Assembly: GCA_015069395.1 (NCBI GenBank)
Contig: SVIR01000001.1
Coordinates: 132,392-196,391 of the forward strand
DNA: 64,000 nucleotides
Source of the DNA: Clostridiales bacterium
Lineage (GTDB): Bacteria > Bacillota > Clostridia > Christensenellales > UBA1242
Direction of reading: 5' to 3'
Shown: positions 14,746-51,928 of the stretch, piece by piece
Layout: each line of letters starts with the position of its first letter
How positions within the stretch are numbered: the stretch's first letter is position 1
Translations under genes and position numbers: made by a program
Notes under the pieces: model-generated
Told to the model about the DNA's origin: nothing
The model's input: only the letters and a program-made list of their open reading frames with translations
Databases searched by the model: none

Positions 14746-17700
14746 ATGAAAAAGAAATTGTTTATTTTTATGATGCTTATTATGGGAGTTTTCTGTGGGA
14801 CTCTTGGATTTTTTAATGTTCAAGAAAGCGCTCACGCAGAGAGCCCCTTGGCGAGTACTTGGGATGGGTCTTATGAAGATTCTCTGAGTGATGTAAGTGA
14901 AGGAGACTTTATTAATGAAGGTCAGACGTATTATATTTACTCGGCCAAGGGCTTCTCATATTTTGCGTATATGGTTAGAAGTACAGGTGGCGGATACAAC
15001 AATTTTATGGGAAAGAATATCTATCTTCAAACAGACATTGACTTAGCAGGACATTCTTGGACTCCTATTGGGCAAGACTCGGTTGCTTTTGATGGAAGAT
15101 TTTATGGAAATGGTCACACCGTTTACAATTTATATGTAAATGCCAATTCGGGAACAAATGTTGGTTTATTTGGCACTTTAGGTGCAAATGCAGTAATTGA
15201 TAATTTACATATTAAGAATTTAGATATAAGTACTAGTGGGGTTACAAATGTTGGTGGGTTAGCAGGATCGTCGCAAGCACTAATTACAAGATGTTCTACA
15301 GAAGGTTCTATTGATGCAAGTGGAGCTAAAAATGTTGGTGGATTGATAGGAAATGTTTCTAGAACATCTGGAGAAGGCATTGACAATAGCTTTTCTGATG
15401 TTGATATAAACGTTTCAAGTTCAACAGATCTCTCTGTAGGTGGGCTTGCTGGTTTGTACGCTTCTACAACGCTTAACACTAGTTATGCGAGTGGAAATAT
15501 AGAAGTTTCAAGCAGTGAGGCCTATGTTGGGGGACTTTTTGGACATACTACTGGTTCGATTTCTATCACCAATGCTTATAGTATTGGTGATATTTCCATT
15601 TCTAATATGAGCAATTCTAGAATAGGTGGAATAGCTGGTTATGTAGAAAGTGGCTTTAGGTTTAATGTTGGATATTATGGTGGTGCGATTGTTGAAGAAA
15701 CTGCAAGCACTACTTCTAGAATTGCTGGTTTTGTTGGAAACTTTGGAACAACAAGCACAGCTTCAACAAGTTTAAGAAATATGCTTTTCTTAGGTTCGTT
15801 TAATGTTAAAACTACCTATGCTCCTTTCTATAACAAGACCTATACGGCTTCTTCTTTGACCGAGTCTAGAGTTTATTGTTCTAGTGATTATAGCGCAAGT
15901 GGAATTTATTACTTGAATGAATTGGCTACAACCGAGAGTTTTTATAGCGCCATTAGGTATTGGGGAAGTGAAAGTGAATGGGATTTTTCACTTGAAGGCG
16001 ATTGGGGAATGAATTTCGGAAAAAACGAAGGGTTTCCTTATTTGCTTGGTTGCGACAATTTAGGAAATGCAAACAATGACTTAGAGCATTCATTTGTAAA
16101 TATTTTGGAGGGCTCTGGTACTGCTGCAGATCCTTATCAAATCAAAACTGCAGGAGATTTGGGGTGGCTGGCATTTAATTATGAAAGTTTTAGTTCACAA
16201 ACGGAGTATTTTGCTCTGCAAAATGATATCGACTTAAGTGGAAGATCTTGGTATTCAATTGGAAATGAAGAGGATCCTTTTAGCGACGTTTTTGACGGAA
16301 ATGGCTTTGGAATATCAGGTATGACTTGTTCTATTCAAGAGAAGAATTCTTATCACGGCCTTTTTGGAGTGGCTAAAAATGCTGTAATTAAAAATTTAAA
16401 CGTAAACAATACTAAATTTTTGAATGAGGGAACTGGAGTTAATAGCCTTTATGGAAACTTCGTAGGACTTGTGCAAGGAAATGTTTATTTTATCAACTGT
16501 ATTAGTTACGTTGACGGAGAAGGAATTGACGAAAACGTAGTTGTTTATGACAATATTGGTGGACTAGCAACAGGAGCCAAAATATTTTTGTATTACGGAA
16601 GATTGAACACAAACATAAGTATGGACATTTTGACTGGCTCATTTAAAATCCCTACAGGCATTTCTTTTACTACTGGTTATGATATGATTGTAGATGGCAC
16701 AGGTGGACAATTTTATGCGACAGATGGTTCGATTTATTTAGGCAGATATCATTTGCTTGTTGCCGAAAACGGAAGTGTTGCTCAGACACTAAGTTCTACA
16801 GGAAAGGTGATTGACGCTACTTTTGGACGCACTGCTTTGCCAGGGCTTTCAACAAACTATGGAATAAAAGATGTTTTGATTATGAAAGGCTTTAAGCTGC
16901 TTGGATATCGTTATGTTCATGACGACTCGGCAGTTTCTGTAAGTTCAGATTTTACTTTAACAGGCATTGATGTTTCAAAAAATCCAGTCAAAGGTATCTA
17001 TGCGGTATGGGAAAATAGAGGTTGGAGTGAAGACGGCATTGATCCTGACACTGCTATGAAAGTTAAGGTGATTTATAATGCTTACGAACAATATTATTAC
17101 ACTACACAAGACCTAGATTATTCTTCTGATTCGTTGTGGCAACGTGATAGTGACGGAAACGTTTATGTGACATATTATTATGAATACGACTCGTATTTGG
17201 GAGAAAATGCGGCATTGACGCAAGTGCCTGTTTATACAAAAAGTGAAACGAGAGTTTATTTGAGGGGGAATGATTTTAATATCGCAGGTCTTTACAAAAC
17301 TTTTGATAGGGGCGCGTTTAAAAACAGCATTATGGATTCTCTTGGCAGAGTTTTTGTAAATGACGATATGACTTTCTATGCAGAGTGGGAAGGCAGAGCA
17401 GACGCTACGCATCAAGTTTCAGTAGAATTTTTAACAGCTGATGGAGATGCTGGAGAATTTAATGTAGCAGATGTTGTCGAATCGCTTTCAATGTACAAAT
17501 ATTATGGTTCAGCTTTTACAAACCCAACAGCTGAAAGAATTTTGAGTTCGGGACAAACAAAAATCGAATATGATTATGATGCTGTTTTGAGTTATTCAAA
17601 AGATACATATTCGCAGTTTACGTTGGAGATTAAAGAAGGATATTCTTTTTCAAATTTGGCGCAATATGTTTATTCAAGTAAAAATGTGTTGGATACAAAC

Positions 17701-20700
17701 TTTGGTTTGTTGGCAAACTCAACGCCAAAAACTTTTGTAAGGGCAGATGGTGTAGCTACTTTCAACCAAGCGAAATTTTATAATATGGTTGGGGATTATG
17801 TAATCAAAATAACTCTCCAACGAAACATTCAAACTTTTGATGTGGCTACAGGTGGTGGAGTGTATTTTGGACTTTCTCCAAAAATTGCCGACTATTCTGA
17901 TGTTGCAATTAGAAAAGGAAACGAATTTTTAAGGGTTGAGACACTTGGTTTTAATTGCGAAAACCTTGTTGGCTATGACTGGATAAATCATAAATTGCTC
18001 TGTTCTACAGAGGCTAGGGGGCTTGGAGATGTAACGTCTGAATACATAGAAAATGACACTGTTTATTTGAGATATTCATTTAGTGCTTCTGCATCAAGAT
18101 ATTTTTCATATAAATTGAGTTATAATAACGATGGAACAACAACCGTTGCAATGCACGAAGTTGACCAAAATTTGGTTGAACAAGATTGGATTATTTCTTT
18201 AACCTATTCTTCCCCTAATGCGTTTAAGGCTGAATATTACACAGATTCAACTTTTGCTTTTATATTCTCAACGGAAGAAGATAAAAACATTTTCGAAAAA
18301 CTTTCACCAAAAACAGGAGAAGCAGAAAATTTTGAGATGTATGAATTGCTTTCAAATGCTGATGGTGTAACAAAAGCTTATATGACATTTACAAACCTTA
18401 TAGAACTGAAAAATTCTTATGGTGTTAGATTGAATGTTGAAGCTGTCACAGCTTATATTGAAGCTTTGTTTGTATTCCAAATGGTTGATGCTAATGGAAA
18501 TCAAATCATTGGATCCAATCTTCCACAAGGAAATGCAACGTCAATCAATACTTCACAAAGAACAACGGGATATTTTGATATAAGAGCAACTGATTATTGG
18601 AGACCAACAAGCGTATATAGCATTAAGGTTTCAGACGTGAACTTGGCTACAGAAGAATTGAGCCAAGCCTTTGAAACAGAATTTAATGCAAATTATTCAT
18701 ATCGCCTAAGTGTTGAGGAGACTTATTATCAAAAAGGCGAAGATATCCCCACTTATTTTGAACAAGATACACTCAGATTGGATTATGGTTTTGAGGCTGA
18801 CGCTATAGCTCCAGGCTTTTATGTAGTTAAAATTGTTTGCGAAAAAGTTTATTATTCGATTGATTATCAAGCAAAATTTGTAGATGTTGCGTTTGCTAGT
18901 GATCAAGAAATGTTTGAAAATTTGGTAGACGACGAAACATTTAATGGCTCGGTATCTGCAAAGGTAGGTGGAAGCAATTATGCTAGTGGTGCAGAAACTA
19001 TTTCTTACGACTCAAACATTTTGATGGAAACAGTTTTGGGAGACAATAATGCTTTTTCGCTTTATGGTTGGATAATCATTGATTGTACTGGTTCATTCGA
19101 ATTCTTAAATTTAAGAACCGACACTTTAGAATTTGTTTATTATCATAAAAATGCACAAACGTCAAACAAAACGCATAAAACTGGAAACAGATTCAATCTT
19201 TCTGTTTATGCTGTTTATCAAAAGAAAGAAGTAAGAGTTTCTTTGAGTAATGTGGCTATTGTTTCTGATTACAATGGTGAAGGCTATGATAGAACATATG
19301 AAAACGGCTCGATTGGTTTTGAAATTGAAATGTCGAGTGTGGACGAAAACATTCTAGACAACACCTTTTTATATCAATATAATCAAGCAGAAAAAGGAGC
19401 TTTGGGATCATTATATCTCGAAAAAGAAGACCTTGGCTCAGCATATTACTTTGTTGGTTTCCAAATTCTTTATGAAGGCTCAGCAATTCTAGTTGAGAAT
19501 GATATTTGGCAATATGACAACCTAGAAAGTCATGCGATTGATTTATATGACGAAGTAAGAAATTATGTCGAAAACTATGACTCTACGATAATGTCCTTGA
19601 ATTTTGAATTGGTTCCTATTTTAAAGCAAAAAACGGCGACTCTTTATTTCTATTCGGGGACTGGTGAAGACAATCAATACGGAGATTTGGAAAACGGAGC
19701 TGTTTTTGATGCTTTGGAAAACTCTACAACTGACAATGTTTATATAATAGAAAATGTAATAGCAGATCAATCTTATTATTTGAATTATGAGCTTGCTGTT
19801 ACTTTGAATGGACAAGAAAAAACCGTTATTTTGGACGACGAATTTTTCTTGCGTACTGGTTATGACAAACCAAATACAAAGTATTGGGCTTATGAGACAA
19901 GTGAAGAAAAGACGGGAACTTTGACATTCTCTCAATTTGTATTAAATGACGATTATTTTGCAAATAATGACGAGTTGAGCCCTGACATTCATTTTTATAG
20001 AGTTTGGTCTACAATTACATACACTCTTACATTTAATGAAAATGGTGGAACTTTTGTAGGCAATGTTCAAAATATGATTGATTTTGAATATAAAAGGGCT
20101 TATTCTCAACAGGCAAAAGTTAGTGCTTTGTCAAGCATAGAAAATCCTGGTTACGCACTTGCTGGTTGGACATATAATGGTACACTTATTTTTGATAGTG
20201 AAGGAGAATTGCTTGACTCGACTATTTTGTTTAATGAAGAAACCGAATACACTATGCCATCGTCTCTTGAATTGTTTGCTAGTTGGGAACAAAGACCTTA
20301 TAAGATAAAACTTAATTTCAACAAAGCAAATTCTATTTCAGTTGCCGGAGAAGTGGTTGAAGGTGTTGATTATATAGAATTTGAATTGGATTATGGAAGC
20401 TCTTTTGAAAATCTAATTTACAATGGAGAAACGGTTGAACTTTCAGATATTGTTGCCACAAGAGAAGGCTTTGATTTTAAAGGAATTTATGCGTATAACC
20501 TAATAGAGCAACAAATAGAAAATGAAACACTATTTTTAATGACAATTCCAGGTGTTGTACTAAGCAGAGAATATGCTCTTGAGCTTTATACAAAGTGGAC
20601 TTTTAAAGAAAATTATTTGTCAATGAGATTTGTTTCAAACACATTTAATAAGACTGTTTATGATGGAAAAACAAGAACTGTAGATTTGGTAACTATGTTT

Positions 20701-23700
20701 GATGCTGGCAATGCGACCACAACTGGATATATTATTTCAACAACAGATGGATTGAGGATTCAAGTTCCTGAAACTATGGGTGTTAATATAAGAACAACAG
20801 TTGCTTGTGCTGGAGGCGAAGTTTCGGGTTATCAAATCAACGTAATAAATGCTAAATATTATTTAATAAGTTTGACTATTAATATTGCAGATACTGCAGA
20901 AGTTTTAAATGCGGGAAGCATAAATTATAGTTATGAATTTGTAGTAGAAATTGAAAAAGCTTCTTTTGCAAGTGAAATCTCGGTTTATCTTTCTGATGCG
21001 GCAAAACTTTCAAATATCAAAGAGATTATGAAGCCTTTTGTTGCAGCAAGTGACGAAATCTTAAGCAAAACGACTTTAGAGACTGTGTCAACTTTTGTAC
21101 AAACAAAAGAAGGGTTGACAGAGAAGACAAAAGACGAAATTTATGAGTATTTAATGACAAAGTATTACCTCATGACAAATACAAATGATGGAAGACTTTA
21201 CAAAACTTATAAATCTTGGACGTTTGCTGATTTTGAAGCATATAAAGTTGGCGATGTTGGTGGTTTTAATGAAGCAATTTCAAACACAAATATGTTTACT
21301 TATTACGATTATGAAAACGAGAAGACGTCTGAAGAAGTTGAACGATATACTTCTTTGAAATTAGTTTCAAATTCAGTTTCAGAAGTTTTGAATGTAAGTA
21401 TTTTCAATGTTGAAATTATAGCGACTGCAGAAAGTTTGATTGCAAACACACCTGCAAAGGCAAGACTCTATCTTTCTGGTAGTGGATTAGAGAACTATTA
21501 TTATAATGAAGGTGAGAGAGGAAACTATATTGAAATTGATGGAGCTTTTGTTTTAAAAAATATACTTAGCGTATCAAACAGTTCTTCTATTACATCTTCA
21601 TATTACAACGAAAATGAATCCGAGGTTGCTGTTTCTTGGTATGAAAATATTGGATCTGTACAAATTGCAAACAGTGGAGAAACTGGGTATCAAGTTGCAG
21701 ACAATTTGTATCTGATAGGTGATATGGTTACTTCAAACGCAGGCACTAAAGTAGGGAATACAATATACACCTATTATGGCGAAGAAAATTATTTGTTGTG
21801 GAATAATGTTTTATTGTATGTGCAAGAAGGAGAGGAATTTAGAGATGTTACTGACTTGTTTAAATTGATAGTTCCTCATGACGATAGTTATACTATACTT
21901 GGAACTGAAGGCCTTATGCAAATCAATGTCACAGCAATGCTTGCTACAATAACTGCTGGAACTTATACAGAATCTCAAATTCAATCTGCTCTGGCGAGAG
22001 GATTGTTGAGAATTACAAAAGTAACATACAGCACAGGTGCTGGGATTTCATTTAAAAATGGTGGAGCTCTTGATGTTGAAGTATTTTATGATCAAGGGGT
22101 TGCTGTTTATCAAATCTTCTCAAATGATGCAAACAGCGTATCGATTGTCGCAAACAAAATGGTTGAATCTATTGAGGTTGCTGTTTCGTCTCAATTTATT
22201 GGGGATTATATAGGGCTTAAAACATGGTCTTCGGATTTCAACGCTGACATTTTAGAAGGATTAGCTGAAAACACTTCAATAACATTTAATTTAGATTTTT
22301 CGAATGAATCTGAAATTGTTGTAGATGCAAATGGTGAAACATATAGAATGGATAATTCTAGCTTTGCAGAGCTAAATTATTATGCAATTTATTCTGACTT
22401 GGTTTTGGCTAGGTTTGATTATAATCTCCCTGAAGAAACCACTCAGACTACAGTTTTGCAATTGGGGGTTAGCACAGATATTGAACATCCACTTGTACAT
22501 GGACTTCTTTTCAAAGAAATGAAAATTCAAAGGGTAGATGGAACGTGGGTAGACTATACTTCGATGTTTCCTGGAGGAGTATTTAAAGGTGTTAACTATG
22601 ACTTCGATCCTACTGGTGTAACAGAGACAGAACTTTTGCTTGCTAAACAATTGAGGCATCGTAGCATTGTTTTGAGTGTAACTTGGTTGCCTCAAGATAT
22701 TCGATTAGATGCTAAAGAGCCTTTAGAATTTGAATATGCCGTAGGTACTTTTACAGGAATGAATTATTCTGATATCGCAGACATAGTCAACTTGAATGAA
22801 AGCATCTATACTTATACTTATACTTGGACTAATGTCGACACAGGTGTAGTGGTTTCTCAAAAAGCACAACTTGTTTTAAAAGATTATGGTGCTTATGCAG
22901 ATAGTGGAGAATACAGTTTAAAAATTTCTGCTACTGTAAATAGAAGATATATTGTTTCTGGAGCAATATCTGAAGCAGATAGTACAAAGTCTGCTAGTGT
23001 AAATTTTGTTCTGACATTTAATAGATATAAGTTGGTTGGGGTTACGCTTCCAAGCGACACGACCATTGTTTATGATGGAACGGATCACGCCTTAGACTGG
23101 ATAATTGTTGTACAATATAGCGAATATGACAATGATGCAGAGGACTATTCTGACGAAGTGTTTACACAAAATTATAACTTGTCTGTTAAAGATGGTATTA
23201 GTTTTAAAGTAAATGGTTCAACAAAAATTGAAATGAAGAATGTTGGAAGTTATACTGCCGAGATTCTCTTTAATGAAGATGCTTATGATCTTTCGTATAT
23301 AGGCACTTTTGATAGAAATTTTGTCTGTACAATTACTCCAGCAACCATAGATTTACAAGAATTTGATATTGAATTTTCTAAAAAGTTTAATGGTGAAGAT
23401 GGCATTCTCGAAGAAGAAATCTATGGTGAAAACGAAACTATAAAAGTAGAATTTACGAGAGAAGCCGGAGAAGATGTAGATACTTATGATCTTTATTTCA
23501 AAAGCAATTTGCAAACACCAAACAACAACTACAATTTTGTTTATGGTGATACCAAAGTGTTTGAAAATGGAGTTTTGACAGCTCAAGCAGCTACCACATC
23601 GGTTGGGACATTTAGTATTACTGCAACAGGAAATCTTGTCTTGTCTTATTTAGTAACACAAGAAAATCCAAATGTAATTACTGCTCCTTATGATGCCAAC

Positions 23701-26700
23701 GGTTATACGCTAAGCTTTACAGATGGTTTTATATTCAATATTTTTAAAAATGGAACTACATACAAACAAATTTCTTTAAGACTTTTTGACGAAGACAACA
23801 ACAAAGAAATTAGTGATTTAGACATCTTGTCATTATTTAGTTCAACTTTTGTACAATTAGAGCCAAAGTTTGACAATGGTGACGTTTTGGATGCTGCTAT
23901 AAATGGAGGAATTTACGAATATTATATTGAGAATACTCCTATTAGCAAATATTTCTCTGCAGTTGTTTTTGAAGACGATTATCAATTCAAGATTGATGGA
24001 ATTGAAATTGATGTATCTGCTTTCGTATTTGAAAAGGTTTATGATGGAAGTCAATATCAATACTTTACAATTGCCGGACAAGAAATTTCAGATATTTCAA
24101 CATATAGTGGAGCATATGTTCAAGCACAATATGCTTCTATGCATAGTGGAGAAAACTATAGAGTAAAACTTGACCTTACAAGTGTAAACTATGAGGGTTT
24201 CCTTGGGAATTATACGTTGTCAAATTATACAGCCTTAGGGAAAATTACAAAACTTTCTGCTACTATGGATGTTACTTTGAAAGAAGCGAGCTATACATAT
24301 GGTGATGTAACTATCAATGATATGAATGAAATTGTAAACTATACTATTACCGATTCGGAAGGAAATGATGTAACAGATTTGCTTGTTAATGGATATTACA
24401 CATTAAACTTTTCTGTAGATGGAACTGTAAATCCTATTGGTTGTCTTTATAAAGGAGATTATGAAATGAGAGCCAATGGAGAATTCCAAGATTTTGTAAT
24501 GACTATAAACACCCCAAGATTAACAATTGAGGCTTTGACATATCAATTGCATATTTCAAAAGGATACAAAGTTGCAGAAGTTGGAGACATAGTAGAAGCT
24601 GTCTATACCGATCAAGTTAAGATTTATGAAACAGGAGATACTCTTGATATAGAATTTACGGTTGACGGACTGACACCTGGTACAATATTGACGGATATTG
24701 GAACATATTTCTTATCTCTAGTAAATAATAGGTATGCAAATGATAGTATTATTGTAGAGCTGGTACAGGACATTGGAGGGTTTGAAGTTGTCGCTTCTAC
24801 TGCCACCATTTATATAAGAATTGTTGACGAAAGTATTTTAACAAAACGTTACAACCAACAAGCTTATGCAATCTCTTATGATGCAACAGTAAAGACAATT
24901 TCAATTTCAAACCAAAGTACTAGCACGTCTGCTTTTGAAACCTATACTAAAAATCAAGAAGGTGAAGAAGTTTCAGTAGAAATCGAGTTTACAGATTTTG
25001 CATTGTTGCTTGGCAGAGATGTTGAAGTTACGGAAGTTGGCGATTATAAATTGAACCTGACTGCTTCTTGTGTAAATTATTCTTCAATTGTTTTTGAGAA
25101 AGAATATTATTTTACAATTTCTAAAATTTCAGTAAATACAGTTCTTATTAGCACAACAAAGACTTATACAGGAAACACAAATTTTGTAGAAGAGAACTTT
25201 GCAGAAAAGCTGGTAGGGGATAATGTTACAATTGTTATTAAATTTGATACAGCCAATGTAGGGGTTAACAAAACAGGAACATTCTATTTGCAAGGGGCAG
25301 ACCGATCGAATTATGAATTGTCTACATCTACATTCAATAATGGCATAATAAACAAAGCAGAGGCTTCGATTGTAATTTCGAATCTTGAACACGTTTATGG
25401 AAGTTTCTTTAATACGGACAAGTTGCAATACAGAGTAGTTTCTGGTGGCGACTATGTTATTTCTGATCAATATACAGTCGAACTAGCAATAGACGATGCC
25501 GTTTATACAGATAGGGGGTATTTAGAAGTTGGAGAATACTCAATTTCAGCGACGACACTTACCTCAAGCAACTATAATATCGAATTTACAACAGAAATCC
25601 TGAAAATAACACCTTATCAATGGGATTTGAAACTTGTAGCAAACGGAGAAAAGACTTTTGTATTTGATTCGGAAGAAAGCAAAATTTTTACATTTGATTA
25701 TACTTTCCAATCTCCTCTTTTTGAAGATGTTTTGGTAACACTTACCCGTGAAGAAGGCATTTCAGTAGGATTCTATAAAGTATTGAGTGGAGTTACAACA
25801 AACAAAAACTATATCTTGACCGTTGAAGACTTGTCTGCAAGGGGGTTTGTTAAGATTATAAAACCAGAAGAAATTTTGTATGCCCTGCTTTCAAATGAAG
25901 AAACTATTGATGCCACTGATGTGAGTTTGGGTGTAACAGCAGAAATAGAATATGATGCAAACGTCTATGATCAAGCAGAGGTTGTTGAAAACAAAACTGA
26001 AGCAAAATATTATTTGACGTTTACAAGCAGTTTAAATGAAAATGTTAAAAAAGAATTTGAACTAAACTTCTATCTTTTTGATAGTGAAAATGATGTTTAT
26101 AACAGAGCCAATGCTGTTGTTGAAGGTTTAGAAACGACTATTTCTATTTTGAACGCTTCAACGGTTTCGAACGTTGGAACATATAGCTTGCAAAGCTCTG
26201 AAACAAAGTCTTTGAGTTATGAAGTGAGAATGGGAAAAGCAAATTCGCTTTATAGCTTCTTTGTAAGCATTACTCCAAGACAACTCTATTTCAAAGAAGA
26301 ATTGCTTAGCAAGGAGTTTGACAATAAAGATGCAATCTTTGAATATGAAGATGCAAATGAAATGCTCGACAGAATTATAGAAGGAGAGCAAGTTTCTTTG
26401 GATTTGAGATTTGTTAGGGCTGGCGAAGTAGTTAAATATGCCGGAACAAACTATGATATTGCTGGGGAAATTTTTGGTCTTGATGCTGGAAATTATGAAC
26501 TAAATCTGACAACATTAGAAGGTGTTCTAGTTAAAGCAAATATCGACAGAGCAAATATTACATTTATTATCAATACACAAGCATTTATATATGGCGAAGA
26601 AATTGCTCTCGATTATTCTTATCGTACAGACGTTGATTTGACAGGTTATGACGAATCAAAACTTTATATCGAACTTCGTATTGATGCGTCTGCAGAAAAT

Positions 26701-29700
26701 TATTCTTCAAGTGGCAATTTGAAAGTTGGAGAATATAGCATTATTCACTTCTTTGGAGGACAAGATTTCAAGATTGAAATGTTTATTACAGACAATGTTG
26801 AATATACGGACAATCAGGTTGTTCCTGCAAAAGTAATAGTACAAAAGAAGATGTTGGATTATAGTGCAGTAGAAGGACACGAACTTCAATCTATCTTTAC
26901 AAAAGTTTACGATGGAACAAGAGAAGTTAATATAGCTGATCAAGAAGGCAATATGTTTGTTGTCTTGGAAAACATAGTTGAAGGCGACGAAGTAAATCTT
27001 GTTACTGCAACATACGCAAGTGAAAATCTTGGACAAACAATTCAAATTGATTTCACGCTAGACGGAGCAGACATAGAAAACTACGAAATTACCCCTTGGC
27101 TTTTTGGAACAATCAAGGCGATCATTGTTTCTATTGATTTTGATTATCCTGAAGGGATTGAATCAAACGTTATAAAAAATGGATTGAAAGAAATTTCAAA
27201 ACTTGCATTCCCATTTATGTCAAATACCTATCTTACTTCAAACTCTGCAGAAGCCAATACAAACAGTATTGACAACTTCCCAACTTCGTTGACGGGAAGA
27301 ACTGGATTCTCATTCTTATATTGGACACTGGACTTCTCAGGGATATCAAATGGTACGCAAAAATTGACATATCTTGATGGTTTGGCAAACTCTTTGAGTA
27401 TTGAAAGCACATATGATGGTTATAATTATAGTTTCAGAGTAGACAATGGTGAAAGAACCATTAGGCTTTTGAATGCTTTGATTAGAGAAGATGTCGACAA
27501 CATAATGGGTTATTATTACAAAGAAAATGACAATATTTCATTTAGATTCCAACCAAAATGGGATACAAATAAGTATAGAGTTGTAGTAGTGGTTTCTGAT
27601 TACAAGGGCACATCTTTGGGCCAAGTCGAAGTAGACGACGAAGATGGCGAGACAGAAAATCCTATAGTTACAACAACTTATACTGGAGATTTTGACTACG
27701 GTCAAACAGTAACATTGACAGCTTCTGCAAACGAACACTGTTTCTTCTCGGGGTTCTATATAAATGGAACCTATTATACTGGAGGAAATCCTAATATTAC
27801 TTCAGCTCAAATTGGTTCAAATTATATTTTGCTTATTAATTCTGTAACTGAAAATATGAGTATTAATGTTGAATTTGTTGTTCAAAAAGTAAATCTAACG
27901 CTTGATTTGTCAACTTTTGAAAATGCAAGTGTAAACTCAAGCAATTTTGTTGAACAACCAGACGGAACTTACAAATGGGCAACAAACTATTTTGATGGGC
28001 AATCAATTTATCTTTATGATATAGCTGAAACGATTAACAGAACTGGATATAGACTTTCAAAACTTAACGAAGTTGAAGAAACTGAATTTGGCACAGTATC
28101 AGTATCAAGCTTTGTAAGGTCAACGACAAACGAAGAGGTTTCTGTTGCTATTGTTCCAACTTTTGATCCTCTCGGCATTATGGTTACTTTGGACTACAAT
28201 TATGACGAAATTACAAAGACGCTTGAAGTGACTTATAAAGAAAAATATTCTCTTGCTACTGATTGGGAAGAAAACCCAACAAGAGAAGGTTATAATTTTG
28301 CAGGTTGGTTCGACGAGGGAGGACAGCAAGTTATTGGAGATAATATTGTTGAAGTTGTAGATGCCCATACCTTGACGGCAAAATGGGATATTAAGAAACA
28401 TTCGATTGTTTTGACTGCAGAAAACGTTACAATTTCAGACAGCAGTGTTGAATTTGTAAACGAAGGAAACGTTTATTCTGCATCTAATATTGATTATGGA
28501 ACCACAATTACATTTAAGGTGACTCCAGTTTCTGGATATCAAATTGCTTCAAATTGGTCAAGCGACTTCACTGTTGTGGTGAATGAAGATAGATCTGCCG
28601 ATGTAGAAGTTTTGTTGATGTCTGACATAACTTACACAATTCCTGTTGAAACAAGGAAAAATATAGTTACTCTCATAGGAGAAAACATTGAAACCTTTGA
28701 AGTATTTGAAATTGTTGGAGAATCCCAAACCACGATTACCCTTGCTGAAAACGCTTTTGAGATAGACACAAGCAAGGTGTTTAAGGTTGTTGTAACACCA
28801 AAACTTGGATATTTAATAATAGATTCAATTGAAATTTCAGACGAAACGGGAATATCTGTTGAAAACAAATTGTTGGAAGGAAATGTGTTGACCTTTGAGG
28901 TTGTAGGCGTTTTCCAAGATATTGAAATCTCATTTGAAACAGAAATCCAAATGAATGACGTGACGGTTGTATTTGACAAAAACGAAGCAATCGAATGGAT
29001 TATGTATGACGATTTGATTTACAACAATATCGAAGAGTTGACATCATTTAATGTCGCAAGTTCGTTCGAATTTTATTTGTCATTTAATCACGGATATGCT
29101 TTTAATAATGCTCATGCAGAATTGTTTAGCATTGTTAGTCAAGAAAAAATGGAATCGGGTAGCTTGATTGGTAAATATAAAATTGTGGTTGAAGATATTT
29201 ATTCAGATGGAACAATCAATATCACTACAAAAAAAGCTCAATATACATTAACAGTTGAAGTTGTGTCTTATGACGAAAACAAAAATGTTGTTGAAGAGCC
29301 AAACAATAAAGCTTTTGTAAATGGATATGCGACTATAACAAAAGACTATCAAACTGTTGTTGAACTTACATATGAATTGGCACCCCTTTATAGTTTTGTA
29401 GGTTGGAGTAGGGATGGAATATTTGCTTTTGATGCTAGTGAAAAACTCAACTACGCGATTGTGGGAGACGAAACAATATATGCAATTTTCTCTACATTAA
29501 AGTTTACTATAACTTTTGAAAGTCTTTCTTATTACAAAGTTAACACAGAACTTGGAGAAGATTATGAGAAAGATGTTTATGTTTCAATCAAAGGAAGTTA
29601 TTTGGATAAAGAAACAAGTGAAAACTTGGAAATGATTGAAATTTATTATGGCTCTGACAAAGAAATAGTGTTTGAAGTTCCGGAAGGATACACTTATTTG

Positions 29701-32691
29701 GGATATGGTTATTATTTTGAAAACGAATTTGTTTATTTAAACAATGATCCTAGCACAAACGAAAAGATAGACGTTTTGCTTTCTACTTTCTTGCTTGATG
29801 GAGATAGAAAAAATCAAACAATTTCATTTGTTGTAGAGCCAAAAGAATTAAAACTTTCATTTGATACCAAGATTGATTATGACGATGTGTATGAGGAAAA
29901 TAATGGCGTTGGTAGCATAGCGCTTCAATCAGAATCAGGAGAAGATGTAAATAGATATGGTTATGTAAGTGGAACAAGGACACGTTATTCGGAAGAAAGC
30001 TTCAAAGACGGATCTTTGCTTGACGATACAAAATTTGAAGTGATTTCTATTACAGGACAAACAGTTTATATAAAAATCAATGTTTTGAAAGAAGGATATC
30101 AATTCTATGGCATAAACATTTCAAATGACAGTGTTGTTGCCGAACGAGTGGATGGCGACGATTGTGTAATTTATGTTTTTGATGGTTTGATTGGTGGAAG
30201 TGAGATTGCTATAGAATTTTTATATAAGCCAGATATCAACATTATTGATATTTCTTATAGAAAAAATGACGATATTGTTGAGGCCGGTATCTTTAGTTAC
30301 GAATTGGAAGATCAAAACAAAAACAAAGTTTGGTCTTCTGGTGTCGAATATCCAAACATCACAATTTCAGCTTACACGGATACTTGGTTTGAAGTGAAGG
30401 CATATATTCAACTTGGATTCTTTGTAGATCCACAAAATTTGATTATTACAGATTTAAATGGAATAATTGTTATGGGAAGCGTTTCTTATGAGGCTATGTC
30501 ATATCTTGAGACAGGCTTTGTTGGTTGTATAACCTTCACTGTATCAGATTATTTAGGAATAAATCGAATCATAATTGATGTTTCTACATCAAATTACAAA
30601 GTTTTGCTCAAAGAAAACGAAACGGTTTTAGTTGAATTGGACGACGTTGAGTTTAATGAATTGCTTGATATCACAGAAAACAACAGAAACATCACAATTT
30701 ATGATACCGAAAGAATCTATTATTCTAGTGGAAAGCTTAAACTTGATTTGCCAAAAGAAAACTATAATTTTGAAGGTTTCTTTACACTTCAAAATGGCGC
30801 TGGCGTCAGATATATTGATTCTTCTGGAAACGCTATAAACAGCTGGTTGGAAACGGGTTATGAGCTCAATTCGAAAACATCAAGATATGAATTGACCCAA
30901 AATGCAGAACTTGTTTATGACCAAGAGAATGGTGAAACTTCAGTAGTAATTTCTCTTTATATATATTGGTCATATCTCAAGACAAGAATTACATTTGAGA
31001 TGGTGCCTGCTATCAGAACGAGCGCAACGGCACAAGATATGATTTCAGGAATAGATTGGACAAATTCTTGGTTCTATGGAACTTCTCCAAACTATATTGA
31101 AATTGCGTTTAACACTGATATTTATATCACGGCTCCAGATATTGAAGGGTATAGATTCTTCAAGTTTGTAATCAGTCAAAAGAATGCAGATGGTGTATGG
31201 CTTTCAGACGTAACAGCCTATGAAAATCACATTCCTTGGTCAACAAACGAACACGACAGAATTGTTGAATGTAAGATCATTATTGTTTATTTTGTAAAAC
31301 TAGACGTTACAATCTTCGGTGGAGAAGGGGTTGTAAATATTATTCAAGAGCATCAAGAGGTTCAGGCTCAATTGATGGTTCAGGACGGATATGTTGACAC
31401 GACTAAACCTTGTGATCTTGAAGCTGTTCCGGCAGATGGTTATGAACTTGTAAGATGGCTCAACTACACAACAGGCAGATATATTTACGAATCTAAAATT
31501 AAAAACGTTTATATAACTGACGATTCAAGATTTCTGTTGACATTGAGAGGTAAGACGGTTGTATTTGATTTTAAAGATTATGATACGACATTTGGTCAAA
31601 TAACTCAAATAGTTTCAGAATCGAAAGATAACAGTTACAATTCATACACGCTTGGAAGGTATGTAAATGGTAGATTTGAAAAAGTTTTAAAACAAATAAA
31701 TCTAAAAGTTGGAGACAAAATTACGTTTGTGCTTCAAGTAGATTATGGATTCTCAGTTAAGTGGGACAGAAACGATATTACTTTGGTGGGATATCAAGGA
31801 AACAACATTTATCATTTTGAAATGATTGTTCCTCCTGAAGAAGCTGGAAATACAATAATTGTAAACCCAACTTTCTCAGATCAGCTGCTGTCAATTTATA
31901 TTGAAAGAAGTTTTGTTGATTCTGATATAATAGAAGGCGCATTAGACTTCAACAATGTTGATCTTGCGGGAAATATCGCTTACGAAGGCAAATCGGCCGA
32001 TTTCTTTGCAGTTGAAAAGGGAAGAAGTGTATCGATGCAAGCCAACACAAATGCTAGATATACAATTTCAAATATATACTTGAAAAATTATGAAAGAATA
32101 TTTAGAGATCACGAATTTTTCTGGGAAGGTGATCAAATTGTGTTGAGCACTTCATATTTGTTGGAAAACAACATTATCGGAAATTTAGAAGTTTTTGTTG
32201 AATACGCTAGATTGTTGTGGGAAGACGAAGGTGAGCTTGAAATGTTTGAAGGAGAAGGGTCTTCTAAAAATCCATACATAATTAAGACTGCCGAAGATTT
32301 GACTCTTATGATGCAACTCATAAATTCTGGAAAAGCAAACGCAGAAGGTGAGTTGTACAGCGAATGCTATTATGTTTTAGCAAACAATATTGAAATAGGA
32401 GAAAAATTCTGGACTCCTATTGGAACAGGAAGTAATCCATTCAATGGAACTTTTGATTTCAAAGGATATGAAATTAGAGGAATTTATTTATCAATAGGAT
32501 TTGACACGATTCACTATAATGGATTATTTGGAATATTGGGTCCTAATGCTAGAATAAAATCAACAGACTCGTCGTTGTGGTATGTTTATTTAATTGTTGC
32601 TGTCGTTGTTTTGCTTTTGATATTGCTTATCGTTTTGATTGTGGTAAACAAGAAACGCAAAAAACGTTTAGAACAATTGTCAAAGAGATAA
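14746..32691 (+). CDS. Giant (5981 aa) secreted surface protein: GLUG-like beta-helix modules, InlB/Flg_new-type repeats, YDG/MBG-like repeats, C-terminal TM anchor
   Basis: Signal peptide ending AHA; VGGLAG/GLFG GLUG motifs; KVYDGT-type motifs; GYNFAGWF...LTAKW repeats; C-term WYVYLIVAVVVLLLILLIVLIVVNKKRKKRLEQLSKR. Confidence 0.92.
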   Translation: MKKKLFIFMMLIMGVFCGTLGFFNVQESAHAESPLASTWDGSYEDSLSDVSEGDFINEGQTYYIYSAKGFSYFAYMVRSTGGGYNNFMGKNIYLQTDIDLAGHSWTPIGQDSVAFDGRFYGNGHTVYNLYVNANSGTNVGLFGTLGANAVIDNLHIKNLDISTSGVTNVGGLAGSSQALITRCSTEGSIDASGAKNVGGLIGNVSRTSGEGIDNSFSDVDINVSSSTDLSVGGLAGLYASTTLNTSYASGNIEVSSSEAYVGGLFGHTTGSISITNAYSIGDISISNMSNSRIGGIAGYVESGFRFNVGYYGGAIVEETASTTSRIAGFVGNFGTTSTASTSLRNMLFLGSFNVKTTYAPFYNKTYTASSLTESRVYCSSDYSASGIYYLNELATTESFYSAIRYWGSESEWDFSLEGDWGMNFGKNEGFPYLLGCDNLGNANNDLEHSFVNILEGSGTAADPYQIKTAGDLGWLAFNYESFSSQTEYFALQNDIDLSGRSWYSIGNEEDPFSDVFDGNGFGISGMTCSIQEKNSYHGLFGVAKNAVIKNLNVNNTKFLNEGTGVNSLYGNFVGLVQGNVYFINCISYVDGEGIDENVVVYDNIGGLATGAKIFLYYGRLNTNISMDILTGSFKIPTGISFTTGYDMIVDGTGGQFYATDGSIYLGRYHLLVAENGSVAQTLSSTGKVIDATFGRTALPGLSTNYGIKDVLIMKGFKLLGYRYVHDDSAVSVSSDFTLTGIDVSKNPVKGIYAVWENRGWSEDGIDPDTAMKVKVIYNAYEQYYYTTQDLDYSSDSLWQRDSDGNVYVTYYYEYDSYLGENAALTQVPVYTKSETRVYLRGNDFNIAGLYKTFDRGAFKNSIMDSLGRVFVNDDMTFYAEWEGRADATHQVSVEFLTADGDAGEFNVADVVESLSMYKYYGSAFTNPTAERILSSGQTKIEYDYDAVLSYSKDTYSQFTLEIKEGYSFSNLAQYVYSSKNVLDTNFGLLANSTPKTFVRADGVATFNQAKFYNMVGDYVIKITLQRNIQTFDVATGGGVYFGLSPKIADYSDVAIRKGNEFLRVETLGFNCENLVGYDWINHKLLCSTEARGLGDVTSEYIENDTVYLRYSFSASASRYFSYKLSYNNDGTTTVAMHEVDQNLVEQDWIISLTYSSPNAFKAEYYTDSTFAFIFSTEEDKNIFEKLSPKTGEAENFEMYELLSNADGVTKAYMTFTNLIELKNSYGVRLNVEAVTAYIEALFVFQMVDANGNQIIGSNLPQGNATSINTSQRTTGYFDIRATDYWRPTSVYSIKVSDVNLATEELSQAFETEFNANYSYRLSVEETYYQKGEDIPTYFEQDTLRLDYGFEADAIAPGFYVVKIVCEKVYYSIDYQAKFVDVAFASDQEMFENLVDDETFNGSVSAKVGGSNYASGAETISYDSNILMETVLGDNNAFSLYGWIIIDCTGSFEFLNLRTDTLEFVYYHKNAQTSNKTHKTGNRFNLSVYAVYQKKEVRVSLSNVAIVSDYNGEGYDRTYENGSIGFEIEMSSVDENILDNTFLYQYNQAEKGALGSLYLEKEDLGSAYYFVGFQILYEGSAILVENDIWQYDNLESHAIDLYDEVRNYVENYDSTIMSLNFELVPILKQKTATLYFYSGTGEDNQYGDLENGAVFDALENSTTDNVYIIENVIADQSYYLNYELAVTLNGQEKTVILDDEFFLRTGYDKPNTKYWAYETSEEKTGTLTFSQFVLNDDYFANNDELSPDIHFYRVWSTITYTLTFNENGGTFVGNVQNMIDFEYKRAYSQQAKVSALSSIENPGYALAGWTYNGTLIFDSEGELLDSTILFNEETEYTMPSSLELFASWEQRPYKIKLNFNKANSISVAGEVVEGVDYIEFELDYGSSFENLIYNGETVELSDIVATREGFDFKGIYAYNLIEQQIENETLFLMTIPGVVLSREYALELYTKWTFKENYLSMRFVSNTFNKTVYDGKTRTVDLVTMFDAGNATTTGYIISTTDGLRIQVPETMGVNIRTTVACAGGEVSGYQINVINAKYYLISLTINIADTAEVLNAGSINYSYEFVVEIEKASFASEISVYLSDAAKLSNIKEIMKPFVAASDEILSKTTLETVSTFVQTKEGLTEKTKDEIYEYLMTKYYLMTNTNDGRLYKTYKSWTFADFEAYKVGDVGGFNEAISNTNMFTYYDYENEKTSEEVERYTSLKLVSNSVSEVLNVSIFNVEIIATAESLIANTPAKARLYLSGSGLENYYYNEGERGNYIEIDGAFVLKNILSVSNSSSITSSYYNENESEVAVSWYENIGSVQIANSGETGYQVADNLYLIGDMVTSNAGTKVGNTIYTYYGEENYLLWNNVLLYVQEGEEFRDVTDLFKLIVPHDDSYTILGTEGLMQINVTAMLATITAGTYTESQIQSALARGLLRITKVTYSTGAGISFKNGGALDVEVFYDQGVAVYQIFSNDANSVSIVANKMVESIEVAVSSQFIGDYIGLKTWSSDFNADILEGLAENTSITFNLDFSNESEIVVDANGETYRMDNSSFAELNYYAIYSDLVLARFDYNLPEETTQTTVLQLGVSTDIEHPLVHGLLFKEMKIQRVDGTWVDYTSMFPGGVFKGVNYDFDPTGVTETELLLAKQLRHRSIVLSVTWLPQDIRLDAKEPLEFEYAVGTFTGMNYSDIADIVNLNESIYTYTYTWTNVDTGVVVSQKAQLVLKDYGAYADSGEYSLKISATVNRRYIVSGAISEADSTKSASVNFVLTFNRYKLVGVTLPSDTTIVYDGTDHALDWIIVVQYSEYDNDAEDYSDEVFTQNYNLSVKDGISFKVNGSTKIEMKNVGSYTAEILFNEDAYDLSYIGTFDRNFVCTITPATIDLQEFDIEFSKKFNGEDGILEEEIYGENETIKVEFTREAGEDVDTYDLYFKSNLQTPNNNYNFVYGDTKVFENGVLTAQAATTSVGTFSITATGNLVLSYLVTQENPNVITAPYDANGYTLSFTDGFIFNIFKNGTTYKQISLRLFDEDNNKEISDLDILSLFSSTFVQLEPKFDNGDVLDAAINGGIYEYYIENTPISKYFSAVVFEDDYQFKIDGIEIDVSAFVFEKVYDGSQYQYFTIAGQEISDISTYSGAYVQAQYASMHSGENYRVKLDLTSVNYEGFLGNYTLSNYTALGKITKLSATMDVTLKEASYTYGDVTINDMNEIVNYTITDSEGNDVTDLLVNGYYTLNFSVDGTVNPIGCLYKGDYEMRANGEFQDFVMTINTPRLTIEALTYQLHISKGYKVAEVGDIVEAVYTDQVKIYETGDTLDIEFTVDGLTPGTILTDIGTYFLSLVNNRYANDSIIVELVQDIGGFEVVASTATIYIRIVDESILTKRYNQQAYAISYDATVKTISISNQSTSTSAFETYTKNQEGEEVSVEIEFTDFALLLGRDVEVTEVGDYKLNLTASCVNYSSIVFEKEYYFTISKISVNTVLISTTKTYTGNTNFVEENFAEKLVGDNVTIVIKFDTANVGVNKTGTFYLQGADRSNYELSTSTFNNGIINKAEASIVISNLEHVYGSFFNTDKLQYRVVSGGDYVISDQYTVELAIDDAVYTDRGYLEVGEYSISATTLTSSNYNIEFTTEILKITPYQWDLKLVANGEKTFVFDSEESKIFTFDYTFQSPLFEDVLVTLTREEGISVGFYKVLSGVTTNKNYILTVEDLSARGFVKIIKPEEILYALLSNEETIDATDVSLGVTAEIEYDANVYDQAEVVENKTEAKYYLTFTSSLNENVKKEFELNFYLFDSENDVYNRANAVVEGLETTISILNASTVSNVGTYSLQSSETKSLSYEVRMGKANSLYSFFVSITPRQLYFKEELLSKEFDNKDAIFEYEDANEMLDRIIEGEQVSLDLRFVRAGEVVKYAGTNYDIAGEIFGLDAGNYELNLTTLEGVLVKANIDRANITFIINTQAFIYGEEIALDYSYRTDVDLTGYDESKLYIELRIDASAENYSSSGNLKVGEYSIIHFFGGQDFKIEMFITDNVEYTDNQVVPAKVIVQKKMLDYSAVEGHELQSIFTKVYDGTREVNIADQEGNMFVVLENIVEGDEVNLVTATYASENLGQTIQIDFTLDGADIENYEITPWLFGTIKAIIVSIDFDYPEGIESNVIKNGLKEISKLAFPFMSNTYLTSNSAEANTNSIDNFPTSLTGRTGFSFLYWTLDFSGISNGTQKLTYLDGLANSLSIESTYDGYNYSFRVDNGERTIRLLNALIREDVDNIMGYYYKENDNISFRFQPKWDTNKYRVVVVVSDYKGTSLGQVEVDDEDGETENPIVTTTYTGDFDYGQTVTLTASANEHCFFSGFYINGTYYTGGNPNITSAQIGSNYILLINSVTENMSINVEFVVQKVNLTLDLSTFENASVNSSNFVEQPDGTYKWATNYFDGQSIYLYDIAETINRTGYRLSKLNEVEETEFGTVSVSSFVRSTTNEEVSVAIVPTFDPLGIMVTLDYNYDEITKTLEVTYKEKYSLATDWEENPTREGYNFAGWFDEGGQQVIGDNIVEVVDAHTLTAKWDIKKHSIVLTAENVTISDSSVEFVNEGNVYSASNIDYGTTITFKVTPVSGYQIASNWSSDFTVVVNEDRSADVEVLLMSDITYTIPVETRKNIVTLIGENIETFEVFEIVGESQTTITLAENAFEIDTSKVFKVVVTPKLGYLIIDSIEISDETGISVENKLLEGNVLTFEVVGVFQDIEISFETEIQMNDVTVVFDKNEAIEWIMYDDLIYNNIEELTSFNVASSFEFYLSFNHGYAFNNAHAELFSIVSQEKMESGSLIGKYKIVVEDIYSDGTINITTKKAQYTLTVEVVSYDENKNVVEEPNNKAFVNGYATITKDYQTVVELTYELAPLYSFVGWSRDGIFAFDASEKLNYAIVGDETIYAIFSTLKFTITFESLSYYKVNTELGEDYEKDVYVSIKGSYLDKETSENLEMIEIYYGSDKEIVFEVPEGYTYLGYGYYFENEFVYLNNDPSTNEKIDVLLSTFLLDGDRKNQTISFVVEPKELKLSFDTKIDYDDVYEENNGVGSIALQSESGEDVNRYGYVSGTRTRYSEESFKDGSLLDDTKFEVISITGQTVYIKINVLKEGYQFYGINISNDSVVAERVDGDDCVIYVFDGLIGGSEIAIEFLYKPDINIIDISYRKNDDIVEAGIFSYELEDQNKNKVWSSGVEYPNITISAYTDTWFEVKAYIQLGFFVDPQNLIITDLNGIIVMGSVSYEAMSYLETGFVGCITFTVSDYLGINRIIIDVSTSNYKVLLKENETVLVELDDVEFNELLDITENNRNITIYDTERIYYSSGKLKLDLPKENYNFEGFFTLQNGAGVRYIDSSGNAINSWLETGYELNSKTSRYELTQNAELVYDQENGETSVVISLYIYWSYLKTRITFEMVPAIRTSATAQDMISGIDWTNSWFYGTSPNYIEIAFNTDIYITAPDIEGYRFFKFVISQKNADGVWLSDVTAYENHIPWSTNEHDRIVECKIIIVYFVKLDVTIFGGEGVVNIIQEHQEVQAQLMVQDGYVDTTKPCDLEAVPADGYELVRWLNYTTGRYIYESKIKNVYITDDSRFLLTLRGKTVVFDFKDYDTTFGQITQIVSESKDNSYNSYTLGRYVNGRFEKVLKQINLKVGDKITFVLQVDYGFSVKWDRNDITLVGYQGNNIYHFEMIVPPEEAGNTIIVNPTFSDQLLSIYIERSFVDSDIIEGALDFNNVDLAGNIAYEGKSADFFAVEKGRSVSMQANTNARYTISNIYLKNYERIFRDHEFFWEGDQIVLSTSYLLENNIIGNLEVFVEYARLLWEDEGELEMFEGEGSSKNPYIIKTAEDLTLMMQLINSGKANAEGELYSECYYVLANNIEIGEKFWTPIGTGSNPFNGTFDFKGYEIRGIYLSIGFDTIHYNGLFGILGPNARIKSTDSSLWYVYLIVAVVVLLLILLIVLIVVNKKRKKRLEQLSKR

Positions 32692-33541: not shown

Positions 33542-36154
33542 GTGGAAAGTTATCATAGATTATCTGTTTCGGAAAGTTTAGCAAAAATAGATTCCCAAAA
33601 GGAAGGATTGTCACAAAAAGAGGTAGATATTCGGCTGCCTCAAAGTCAAAAAATGCAAATCAAAGACTCAAAGAGGCAATCTTTTTTATCCAAGTTTTGG
33701 GCTCAGATAAAAGAGCTTATGGTTCTGGTGTTGCTTATCTCTGGTATAGTGTCAATTGTTATTGGAATTGCAGAAAAAACTAGTGAGGAAATCGTTGACG
33801 GCGCAATTATTTTAGGAATAGTCGTTATGAATGCTCTTTTTGGCGTATATCAAGAGAGAAAAAGTGAAAAGGCGATTGATAGTTTGAAAAAACTAACGCA
33901 ACCAGAGGCAAGTGTTTTGAGAGAAGGAAAAATTTTCAAAATAAAAACAAACGAATTAGTTTATGGGGATATCGTTTGTTTGAATTCAGGTAGTATTGTT
34001 CCTGCAGATTTGAGGCTTATTGAAACATCAAATATAAAAATAAACGAAGCTTCATTGACAGGCGAAAGTGAAGCAGTTGAAAAGGTTGCTGAATATATTT
34101 ATGCAAAAGAAGTTGGTTTAGGAGACAGAAGAAATATGGCTTATGCAGGCAGTGTTGTAGAAAACGGGCACGCAAAGGGTGTTGTTGTGGCATTGGGCAC
34201 TGAGACCGAAATTGGTAAAATTGCAGAGAGTCTAAAAGAAACAAAAAAAGATCTTACTCCTCTGCAGAAAAATATTCAAGGGGTGGGCAAAATTTTGACT
34301 TATCTAATTTTGCTTGCGGCGACCGTAACTTTTGTTTTGGAAGTTATAAGCAATCCCAATGAAATCTTGCAGGCATTTTTGACGGCAGTTGCGATTTCGG
34401 TTGCAGCCATTCCTGAAAGTATGCCTGCAGTCATAACGATAATTATGAGCTTGGGAATGGCAAAACTTTCTAAGCAAAAAGCTATAGTAAAACAAATGCA
34501 TGCCATTGAAACTTTGGGGGCTTGTGATGTAATTTGTTCGGATAAAACGGGGACGATTACTCAAAATAAAATGAAAGTCACAGATTTTTTTGCTTTTTTT
34601 GATAAAAATAGCGCAAATTTTGATGTGTTTTTAAAAATTATGGTTTTGTGTAACGATGCTCAGCTTGGAGAGAATGGTGTTGTCGGGGGTTCAACAGAAG
34701 TTGCACTGGTTGAATTTGCCAATCAATATGAGTACAACAAATTTGACTTAGAAAAAAAATATTTGCGCATAGACGAAATGCCGTTTAATTCTCAAAAGAA
34801 AATGATGTCTACGCTCAATATTGTTGATGGGGAAAAGATAGTTTTTGTAAAGGGTGCTTTAGATAGAGTTTTGGTTAGATGCAAATATTATCTAAAAAAT
34901 GACAAAGTTGAAGAGTTGGACGAGAAAACAAAACAAAAGATTTTAAAAGAGAATCAAAAACTTTGTAACAGGGCATTAAGAGTTATTAGTTTTGCATATA
35001 AAGAAAGTGAAGTTTTGGACGAAGAAGACTTGATTTTTGCTGGTCTTTGTGGATTGCAAGATCCTCCTCGTCCGGAGATTTTTGAAGCTGTAAAGTCTTG
35101 CCGTAGTGCAGGTATGAGACCGATAATGATTACGGGGGACTACAAAGATACGGCTTTTGCAATTGCGAAAGAGGTCGGCATAGCGAAAAATTTGAATGAG
35201 GTTATTTCTGGGGAAGAAATAGACTTGCTTTCGGACGAAGAATTTTTGAAAGTTGTGGAGAAGAAAAATATTTTTGCTAGAGTAAGTCCGGCACACAAAG
35301 TTAGGATAGTTTCAGCCTTAAAAGAAAGAGGACATATTGTCGCTATGACTGGTGATGGAGTTAATGATGCCCCAAGCTTGAAAAAGGCTGACATTGGAAT
35401 TGGAATGGGAAAAACCGGAACCGATGTGACAAAAGATGTTGCAGATATTATTGTTACAGACGACAATTTTGCGACGATAGTAGTCGCAGTTAAAGAAGGT
35501 CGAAAAATTTATGGAAATATTCAAAAAACGATAAAATATCTTTTTTCTGCAAATATGGCAGAGATTTTGGCTTTGTTTTTTGTGACTATTTTATTTCCGG
35601 GAAAAACATTTTTGTTGCCAGTTCAAATTTTGTTTGTAAATTTGATAACTGATTCTCTTCCAGCAATCGCACTTGGTGTAGAGCCTATTGAAAAATCTAC
35701 AATGCTTGAAAAACCGAGAAGCAAAAAAGATACGTTGTTTTCAAACGGGGTGGGTATAAGTATTACTGTATTGGGCACAATTCAAACATTGCTTACGATG
35801 GGAGCATATCTTTTTGGTATGTTTCTTTATAATGATGCTATTGCAATAACCATGGCGTTTTATACACTCAATCTCATTCAACTTTTCTATATGTTTACAG
35901 CAAGAACAAAAGAAAGTTGTTTTAAAAGCAATCCGTTCAAAAACAAGTTTTTTACACTGTCTTTAATAGTTGGGTTTGGGTTATTGTTTTTAATGATGTT
36001 TACGGAACTCGGCAATCTTTTGCAGTTGCAACCTCTTAATTTTACTTGTTGGGCTGTTGTTTTTGCTTTATCAATTTCAATTATATTTATTGGAGAGATT
36101 TACAAACTTTGCGAAAAGAAGTTTTTAAAAATAAAAGAAAAATACAAAAAATAG
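33542..36154 (+). CDS. Cation-translocating P-type ATPase (Ca2+-type)
   Basis: GTG start; EASLTGES, SDKTGTITQNK, TGDGVNDAPSLKKADIGI. Confidence 0.95.
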   Translation: MESYHRLSVSESLAKIDSQKEGLSQKEVDIRLPQSQKMQIKDSKRQSFLSKFWAQIKELMVLVLLISGIVSIVIGIAEKTSEEIVDGAIILGIVVMNALFGVYQERKSEKAIDSLKKLTQPEASVLREGKIFKIKTNELVYGDIVCLNSGSIVPADLRLIETSNIKINEASLTGESEAVEKVAEYIYAKEVGLGDRRNMAYAGSVVENGHAKGVVVALGTETEIGKIAESLKETKKDLTPLQKNIQGVGKILTYLILLAATVTFVLEVISNPNEILQAFLTAVAISVAAIPESMPAVITIIMSLGMAKLSKQKAIVKQMHAIETLGACDVICSDKTGTITQNKMKVTDFFAFFDKNSANFDVFLKIMVLCNDAQLGENGVVGGSTEVALVEFANQYEYNKFDLEKKYLRIDEMPFNSQKKMMSTLNIVDGEKIVFVKGALDRVLVRCKYYLKNDKVEELDEKTKQKILKENQKLCNRALRVISFAYKESEVLDEEDLIFAGLCGLQDPPRPEIFEAVKSCRSAGMRPIMITGDYKDTAFAIAKEVGIAKNLNEVISGEEIDLLSDEEFLKVVEKKNIFARVSPAHKVRIVSALKERGHIVAMTGDGVNDAPSLKKADIGIGMGKTGTDVTKDVADIIVTDDNFATIVVAVKEGRKIYGNIQKTIKYLFSANMAEILALFFVTILFPGKTFLLPVQILFVNLITDSLPAIALGVEPIEKSTMLEKPRSKKDTLFSNGVGISITVLGTIQTLLTMGAYLFGMFLYNDAIAITMAFYTLNLIQLFYMFTARTKESCFKSNPFKNKFFTLSLIVGFGLLFLMMFTELGNLLQLQPLNFTCWAVVFALSISIIFIGEIYKLCEKKFLKIKEKYKK

Positions 36155-36156
36155 CG

Positions 36157-36176
36157 ATTTTCAACGCTGTTTTTTA
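36157..36176 (+). terminator. Weak intrinsic terminator after the P-type ATPase
   Basis: AGCGATTTTCAACGCT followed by GTTTTTT. Confidence 0.4.
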
Positions 36177-36268
36177 ATAATTTTTAATAATTTTTTAAAC
36201 TTTTTAATAATTTTTTATTAATTTTTCAAAAATAAAAGCAATAAAAAACCAATAAAAATGTTAAAAAA
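36170..36268. other. Phased A/T-tract region (predicted curved DNA) upstream of holB
   Basis: T-runs at 36170-75, 36181-85, 36191-96, 36201-05, 36211-16, 36222-26; mean spacing about 10.3 bp. Confidence 0.65.
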
Positions 36269-36271
36269 GTA

Positions 36272-36299
36272 TTTACGTTTTATAGATTTTTGTGATAAT
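36272..36299 (+). promoter_or_regulatory. Promoter of holB (TTTACG-16-GATAAT, extended -10), ending 8 nt before the ATG
   Basis: TG-T-GATAAT at 36294-36299; no SD before the ATG at 36308. Confidence 0.55.
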
Positions 36300-36307
36300 A
36301 TAATATT

Positions 36308-46175: not shown

Positions 46176-46451
46176 ATGAACAAAACAGAATTTATTGCAC
46201 AAATATCAAAGAAAACGCAAATTCCAAAATCTAAGTGTGATTTGTTTTTAAACGAGTTTAGGGCTTTGATTTTGGAAGCCTGTTCAAAGGGTGATAGTAT
46301 CAATATTCGAAACTTTGGAAAATTTTCGCTTGAAGAAAAGGCGTCTCGAAAATTTTTAAATCCTCAAACTATGAGATATTATGTGTGCAAACCTAAAAAG
46401 ATAATTTCTTTTAAAGGTTTTAAAAATTTTAAGTATGCAGTAAACAAATAA
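46176..46451 (+). CDS. HU/IHF-family DNA-binding protein (start corrected from 46134)
   Basis: MNKTEFIAQISKKTQIPKSKCDLFLNEF...GDSINIRNFGKFSL; GGAGG RBS. Confidence 0.85.
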   Translation: MNKTEFIAQISKKTQIPKSKCDLFLNEFRALILEACSKGDSINIRNFGKFSLEEKASRKFLNPQTMRYYVCKPKKIISFKGFKNFKYAVNK

Positions 46452-51794: not shown

Positions 51795-51928
51795 TTGCAA
51801 AAAATTATTCGGTTTTTATTAAAAAGTTTATTTTTTTTATATTTTTTTGATTTTTTCTGTTAATTTTTATATAATTTTTTGAATATTTTTTAGAAAAAAT
51901 ATAATTTTTATTAAAAAAAGAAAATGGG

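Follow-up and report, generated by a model that had tools for sequence, protein, structure and literature searches.

Phased A/T tracts between a terminator and the holB promoter in an uncultured Clostridia genome: predicted curved DNA with a putative UP-like end

Does the series of helically phased T- and A-tracts that precedes holB serve the promoter of that gene, or does it belong to the intergenic DNA of this genome at large? The array lies in the 153-bp gap between a gene for a P-type ATPase and holB (Table 1), within the window, that is, the whole stretch of 64,000 nucleotides that was analysed.

Phasing and predicted curvature of the array

Counting as a tract any run of at least four A or T, we find T-runs centred at 36172.5 (T6), 36183.0 (T5), 36193.5 (T6), 36203.0 (T5), 36213.5 (T6) and 36224.0 (T5), followed by A-runs centred at 36230.0 (A5), 36235.5 (A4), 36245.5 (A6), 36256.0 (A5) and 36265.5 (A6). 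A preliminary description of this DNA had given the six T-run centres, their spacings and the positions of three A-runs, all exact to the base; it had missed two tracts, the in-phase A4 at 36235.5 and the A5 at 36230, the sole tract in antiphase. Ten of the 11 tracts are in phase over a span of about 98 bp (36170-36268), so that tracts of at least 4 bp recur one helical turn apart, as in phased A-tract DNA. The resultant at 10.5 bp is 8.54 for these 11 tracts and 9.6 for the 14 tracts of the whole gap, with a best period of 10.4-10.6 bp. The observed phasing was reached by none of 5000 dinucleotide shuffles, whether of 36170-36268 or of the whole gap; random linker lengths reached it in 0 of 5000 and 1 of 5000 trials, respectively, and permutation of the existing tracts and linkers in 43 of 5000 and 23 of 5000. 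For tract phasing the locus falls in the top 0.004% of the 100-bp windows of the 0.93-Mb genome and ranks fifth among 42 peaks. No Rfam match to a structured RNA was found in the region.

The intrinsic curvature attributed to the array is supported, as a prediction, by the tract phasing and by a run of the dinucleotide wedge model. The model, with parameters that we take to be those of the Bolshoy 1991 matrix and with angles that are indicative only, predicts that the 98 bp bend by about 123 degrees net, a value reached by 22 of 5000 shuffles, and puts the best nearby 100-bp window at 163 degrees, among the top 0.07% of the genome. Curvature in this model is high, yet less extreme than the tract phasing would suggest. 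On these predictions, the array very probably bends the DNA.

Table 1. Features of the ATPase-holB junction (window coordinates; "." marks features without strand)
Feature	Position	Strand	Basis
P-type cation-transporting ATPase gene, 870 aa	33542..36154	+	ORF; Pfam E1-E2_ATPase, Cation_ATPase_C
Intrinsic terminator of the ATPase gene, A6-UAGCG/CGCUG-U6 hairpin	36146..36175	+	Terminator scan, fold
Six T5-T6 runs forming the T-half of the array, imperfect tandem repeat of TTTTTAATAA	36170..36226	.	Tract list; Tandem Repeats Finder
A-half of the phased array: A5 (antiphase), A4, A6, A5, A6	36228..36268	.	Tract list, phase statistics
Match to UP proximal subsite, AAAAAAGTA	36263..36271	+	Sequence; tract enrichment at about -42 and -51 in predicted promoters
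-35-like hexamer TTTACG, 18-bp spacer to -10	36272..36277	+	Promoter scan, sequence
Extended -10, TGA + TAATAT	36293..36301	+	-10 model trained on the genome
holB, DNA polymerase III delta' subunit, 318 aa	36308..37264	+	Pfam DNA_pol3_delta2, 8e-28

Terminator, promoter and the nearest A-tracts

The first T-run of the array is the U-tract of a terminator, because the hairpin at the end of the ATPase gene, which overlaps the stop codon, ends in the T6 at 36170-36175. A GC-containing stem is thus followed by a U-tract right after the gene end; the fold has a free energy of -10.7 kcal/mol (z -4.4), and none of 200 shuffles was equally stable. For the T-half, Tandem Repeats Finder reports 5.5 copies of TTTTTAATAA (score 75-93). 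The A-half lies outside this repeat and yields only a weak, separate row of 2.3 copies (36234-36258). A rule placing T-runs on the terminator side and A-runs on the promoter side was rejected because A-runs come before T-runs in other strong arrays.

A promoter does lie directly 3' of the array, as had been described: the last A6 is centred at 36265.5 and the -35 starts at 36272. The strength of this promoter is uncertain, because the -35 matches at only four of six positions and the -10 is imperfect. It precedes holB as the first gene of a holB-PSP1/ricT run, the next ORF matching PSP1. The -10 ends 6 nt before the ATG, so that +1 is predicted at the A of the ATG and holB is predicted, from its sequence, to be leaderless. 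In 28 of 30 holB genes compared within the genus, exactly 6 nt separate the end of an extended -10 (TGnTAnnnT) from an in-frame start codon; in the other two the distance is about 7 nt by eye. Genome-wide, the distance from -10 to start has a sharp peak at 6 nt (30 genes), every other distance being shared by 1-21 genes, mostly fewer than 10. According to a 2011 survey, leaderless genes of Firmicutes are found chiefly in Lactobacillales and Mycoplasma (PMC3160421). A class of leaderless promoters in which -10 and ATG keep a fixed distance is less expected in Clostridia.

Relative to the predicted start, the A-tracts are centred at -42.5, -52, -62.5 and -72.5, the antiphase A5 at -78, and the T-tracts at -84 to -135.5. 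The proximal subsite of an UP element has the consensus AAAAAARNR. The sequence AAAAAAGTA (A6-GTA), identical to that consensus, occupies -45 to -37, so that an A-rich proximal subsite is found directly 5' of the -35. At the distal position (AAAWWTWTTTT-like, about -57 to -47) there is an A5 at -54 to -50 with no T-run after it, and only the A-runs at -42.5 and -52 fall in UP-element positions. When 145 predicted promoters of the genome are aligned, tract centres peak near -42, -51, -61 and -72, and the tracts from -37 to -80 are locked to the -10 (p 0.001, holB promoter left out) in a jitter test that keeps the phasing within each region. For -56 to -140 alone, the jitter test on the genome's predicted promoters gave p 0.06-0.20, and promoter-locked phasing across the full array is unsupported beyond -56. 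The genome encodes an RNA polymerase alpha-CTD in which equivalents of R265, N268, C269, K271, G296, K298 and S299 (E. coli numbering) are present. Plausibly, then, the promoter-near part of the array works as an UP-like element. The UP-like role proposed for the array is retained for the two nearest A-tracts, at the UP subsite positions, and is unsupported for the array as one holB promoter element.

Phased tracts in the genome, the genus and the holB orthologs

Genome-wide, the spacing of intergenic tract pairs peaks at about 10.5, 21, 31, 42 and 52 bp, with almost no peaks for coding tracts. Twelve intergenic regions have R of at least 7, against none in 20 shuffles. The phase statistic is 0.19 for convergent, 0.13 for divergent and 0.13 for tandem regions and 0.06 for coding DNA, the gene calls being a greedy longest-ORF approximation, so that small genes or RNA genes may lie within some "intergenic" stretches. 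Phased tracts are found in every class of intergenic region, including convergent ones that have no promoter, and five congeners show the same preference (0.11-0.17).

We compared 29 congeneric holB orthologs (37-68% identity), the named relatives matched through holB being metagenome-assembled Clostridia. Many of them retain the junction of the ATPase gene with holB, most retain the terminator, and nearly all retain the -10; where a gene ends a short way 5' of holB, a T-tailed hairpin is usually found at the same place, of differing sequence. Their gaps are mostly 40-110 bp, some longer, against 153 bp here. The 29 holB upstream regions share no tract register (p 0.89) and hold no detected counterpart of the array, which, by presence or by register, is thus not a conserved regulatory element of holB. 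Since it is absent from orthologous holB promoters, the array cannot be essential, and the lack of a common register marks it as peculiar to this lineage. At some other junctions of the genome (among them C1:126338, 146870 and 34933), congeners do retain an array. Strong phased A-tracts in this low-GC genus of Clostridia are thus a general property of intergenic DNA, not a holB regulator, and single-locus readings of phased arrays need checking against terminators, tandem repeats and orthologs.

Possible roles of the array and known systems

We consider it rather likely that the array is an intrinsically curved terminator-to-promoter spacer, the promoter-near part of which probably serves the alpha-CTD of RNA polymerase. 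This reading draws on phasing beyond chance and a 10.5-bp preference of intergenic DNA here and in five congeners, on the terminator and the tandem-repeat structure of the T-half, and on the agreement between the promoter tract peaks near -42 and -51 and the positions at holB, in a genome that encodes an alpha-CTD. The spacer DNA would carry a static bend; its first T-tract doubles as the terminator U-tract, and its last two A-tracts lie at the UP positions -42.5 and -52. The C-terminal domains of the alpha subunits may dock on these two tracts and modestly raise holB-ricT transcription. Possibly, the distant tracts add general curvature, either for upstream wrapping or as a fixed plectoneme tip for gyrase or HU, and this curvature would be typical of the intergenic DNA of this genome and not holB-specific. 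The T-half probably grew in this lineage, as a 10-bp TTTTTAATAA unit was duplicated beside the terminator tail. Overlapping with the curved-spacer reading, and able to be true beside it, is a chromosome-packaging or supercoiling signal, to which we give some weight without thinking it likely: a static bend would pin a plectoneme or bind HU or gyrase, whatever the neighbouring genes. The phasing is independent of gene orientation and genus-wide, two HU-type proteins are encoded, and the idea matches that of a "structural code" (PMC4132750, PMC3431218); the position of the array is not conserved at the ATPase-holB junction, however.

That the whole array acts as a holB promoter element, likened to the C. 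perfringens plc promoter, seems unlikely, although all in-phase tracts from -42.5 to -135.5 share one helical face and deviate by about 1-2 bp at most from the register that promoters of the genome favour, and the nearest of them fits the proximal UP subsite. The first T-tract is a terminator tail and the T-half a decameric tandem repeat, no register is shared with the 29 orthologs, whose promoters lack the array, convergent promoterless spacers hold phased arrays at least as strong as those of divergent ones, and beyond -56 alone the register is not promoter-locked in the genome; all four points argue against a single promoter element. Quite unlikely, too, is a mutational by-product, in which slippage and AT-biased drift at the terminator tail would have produced a decameric repeat whose period is near 10.5 and which has no selected function. 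The 5.5 repeat copies would suit it, as would a gap longer than that of most congeners, which have no counterpart array; the A-half, however, is non-repetitive yet in phase, and arrays are kept in congeners at some other junctions. Moreover, phasing as such looks selected, because the linkers of many other arrays in the genome are unrelated and the preference for 10.5 bp is found mainly between genes. We regard as very improbable a coupling of ATPase-transcript termination to firing, in which a single set of phased tracts would act first as U-tract and then as curvature and an alpha-CTD ladder, with recapture of RNA polymerase at the leaderless holB promoter.

Phased A/T tracts and intergenic curvature are already known as a kind, and the holB array is one strong example. 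In E. coli, AA/TT periodicity has been reported for intergenic DNA and put forward as a typical trait of prokaryotes, the curvature lying close to promoters and 3' of genes (Hosid et al., 2004; PMC516772); the physiological role has been called unclear (PMC3431218). The prokaryotic periodicity of these two papers resembles the present case in its 10-11-bp phasing and its intergenic location near promoters and terminators; the period here is 10.25-10.5 bp as against about 11.2, and the array stands out as an extreme local instance from an uncultured genus of Clostridia. Promoter-phased A-tracts occur genome-wide in Synechocystis (PMC9825172). UP elements and upstream A-tracts are bound by the alpha-CTD (Estrem, 1998; Aiyar, 1998; as cited in a passage of PMC4081817), and holB shares with them the A6-GTA at -45 to -37, the A5 at -52 and an alpha-CTD with its DNA-binding residues kept; the array, known here from sequence, reaches to -136, far past an UP element. 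A promoter of C. perfringens with phased A-tracts is bound by the alpha subunit (as cited in a passage of PMC4132750). There, too, phased tracts lie directly 5' of a promoter in low-GC Clostridia, whereas the holB array has T-runs and then A-runs, begins inside a terminator, is not conserved in congeners and precedes a housekeeping gene. At sabA of Helicobacter pylori, a T-tract is combined with phased A-boxes (PMC4081817); slippage-prone tracts beside phased A-boxes 5' of the -35 are common to both loci, but sabA has a single long variable T-tract that touches the -35.

The window holds a second strong phased T-tract array (51814-51913, R 7.9), which four congeners lack at the same junction. 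Several of the strongest arrays of the genome adjoin giant ORFs of 3700-6000 codons, or sit a few hundred bp 5' of them (C1:16939, 72377, 126305 and 146845, the last being window position 14454). One giant ORF of the window (14746-32691, about 5980 aa) has Flg_new / InlB B-repeat and YDG domain matches and probably encodes a surface protein. Of the two genes for HU-type DNA-binding proteins, one lies in the window at 46176-46445 (C1:178567-178836) and the other on C14.
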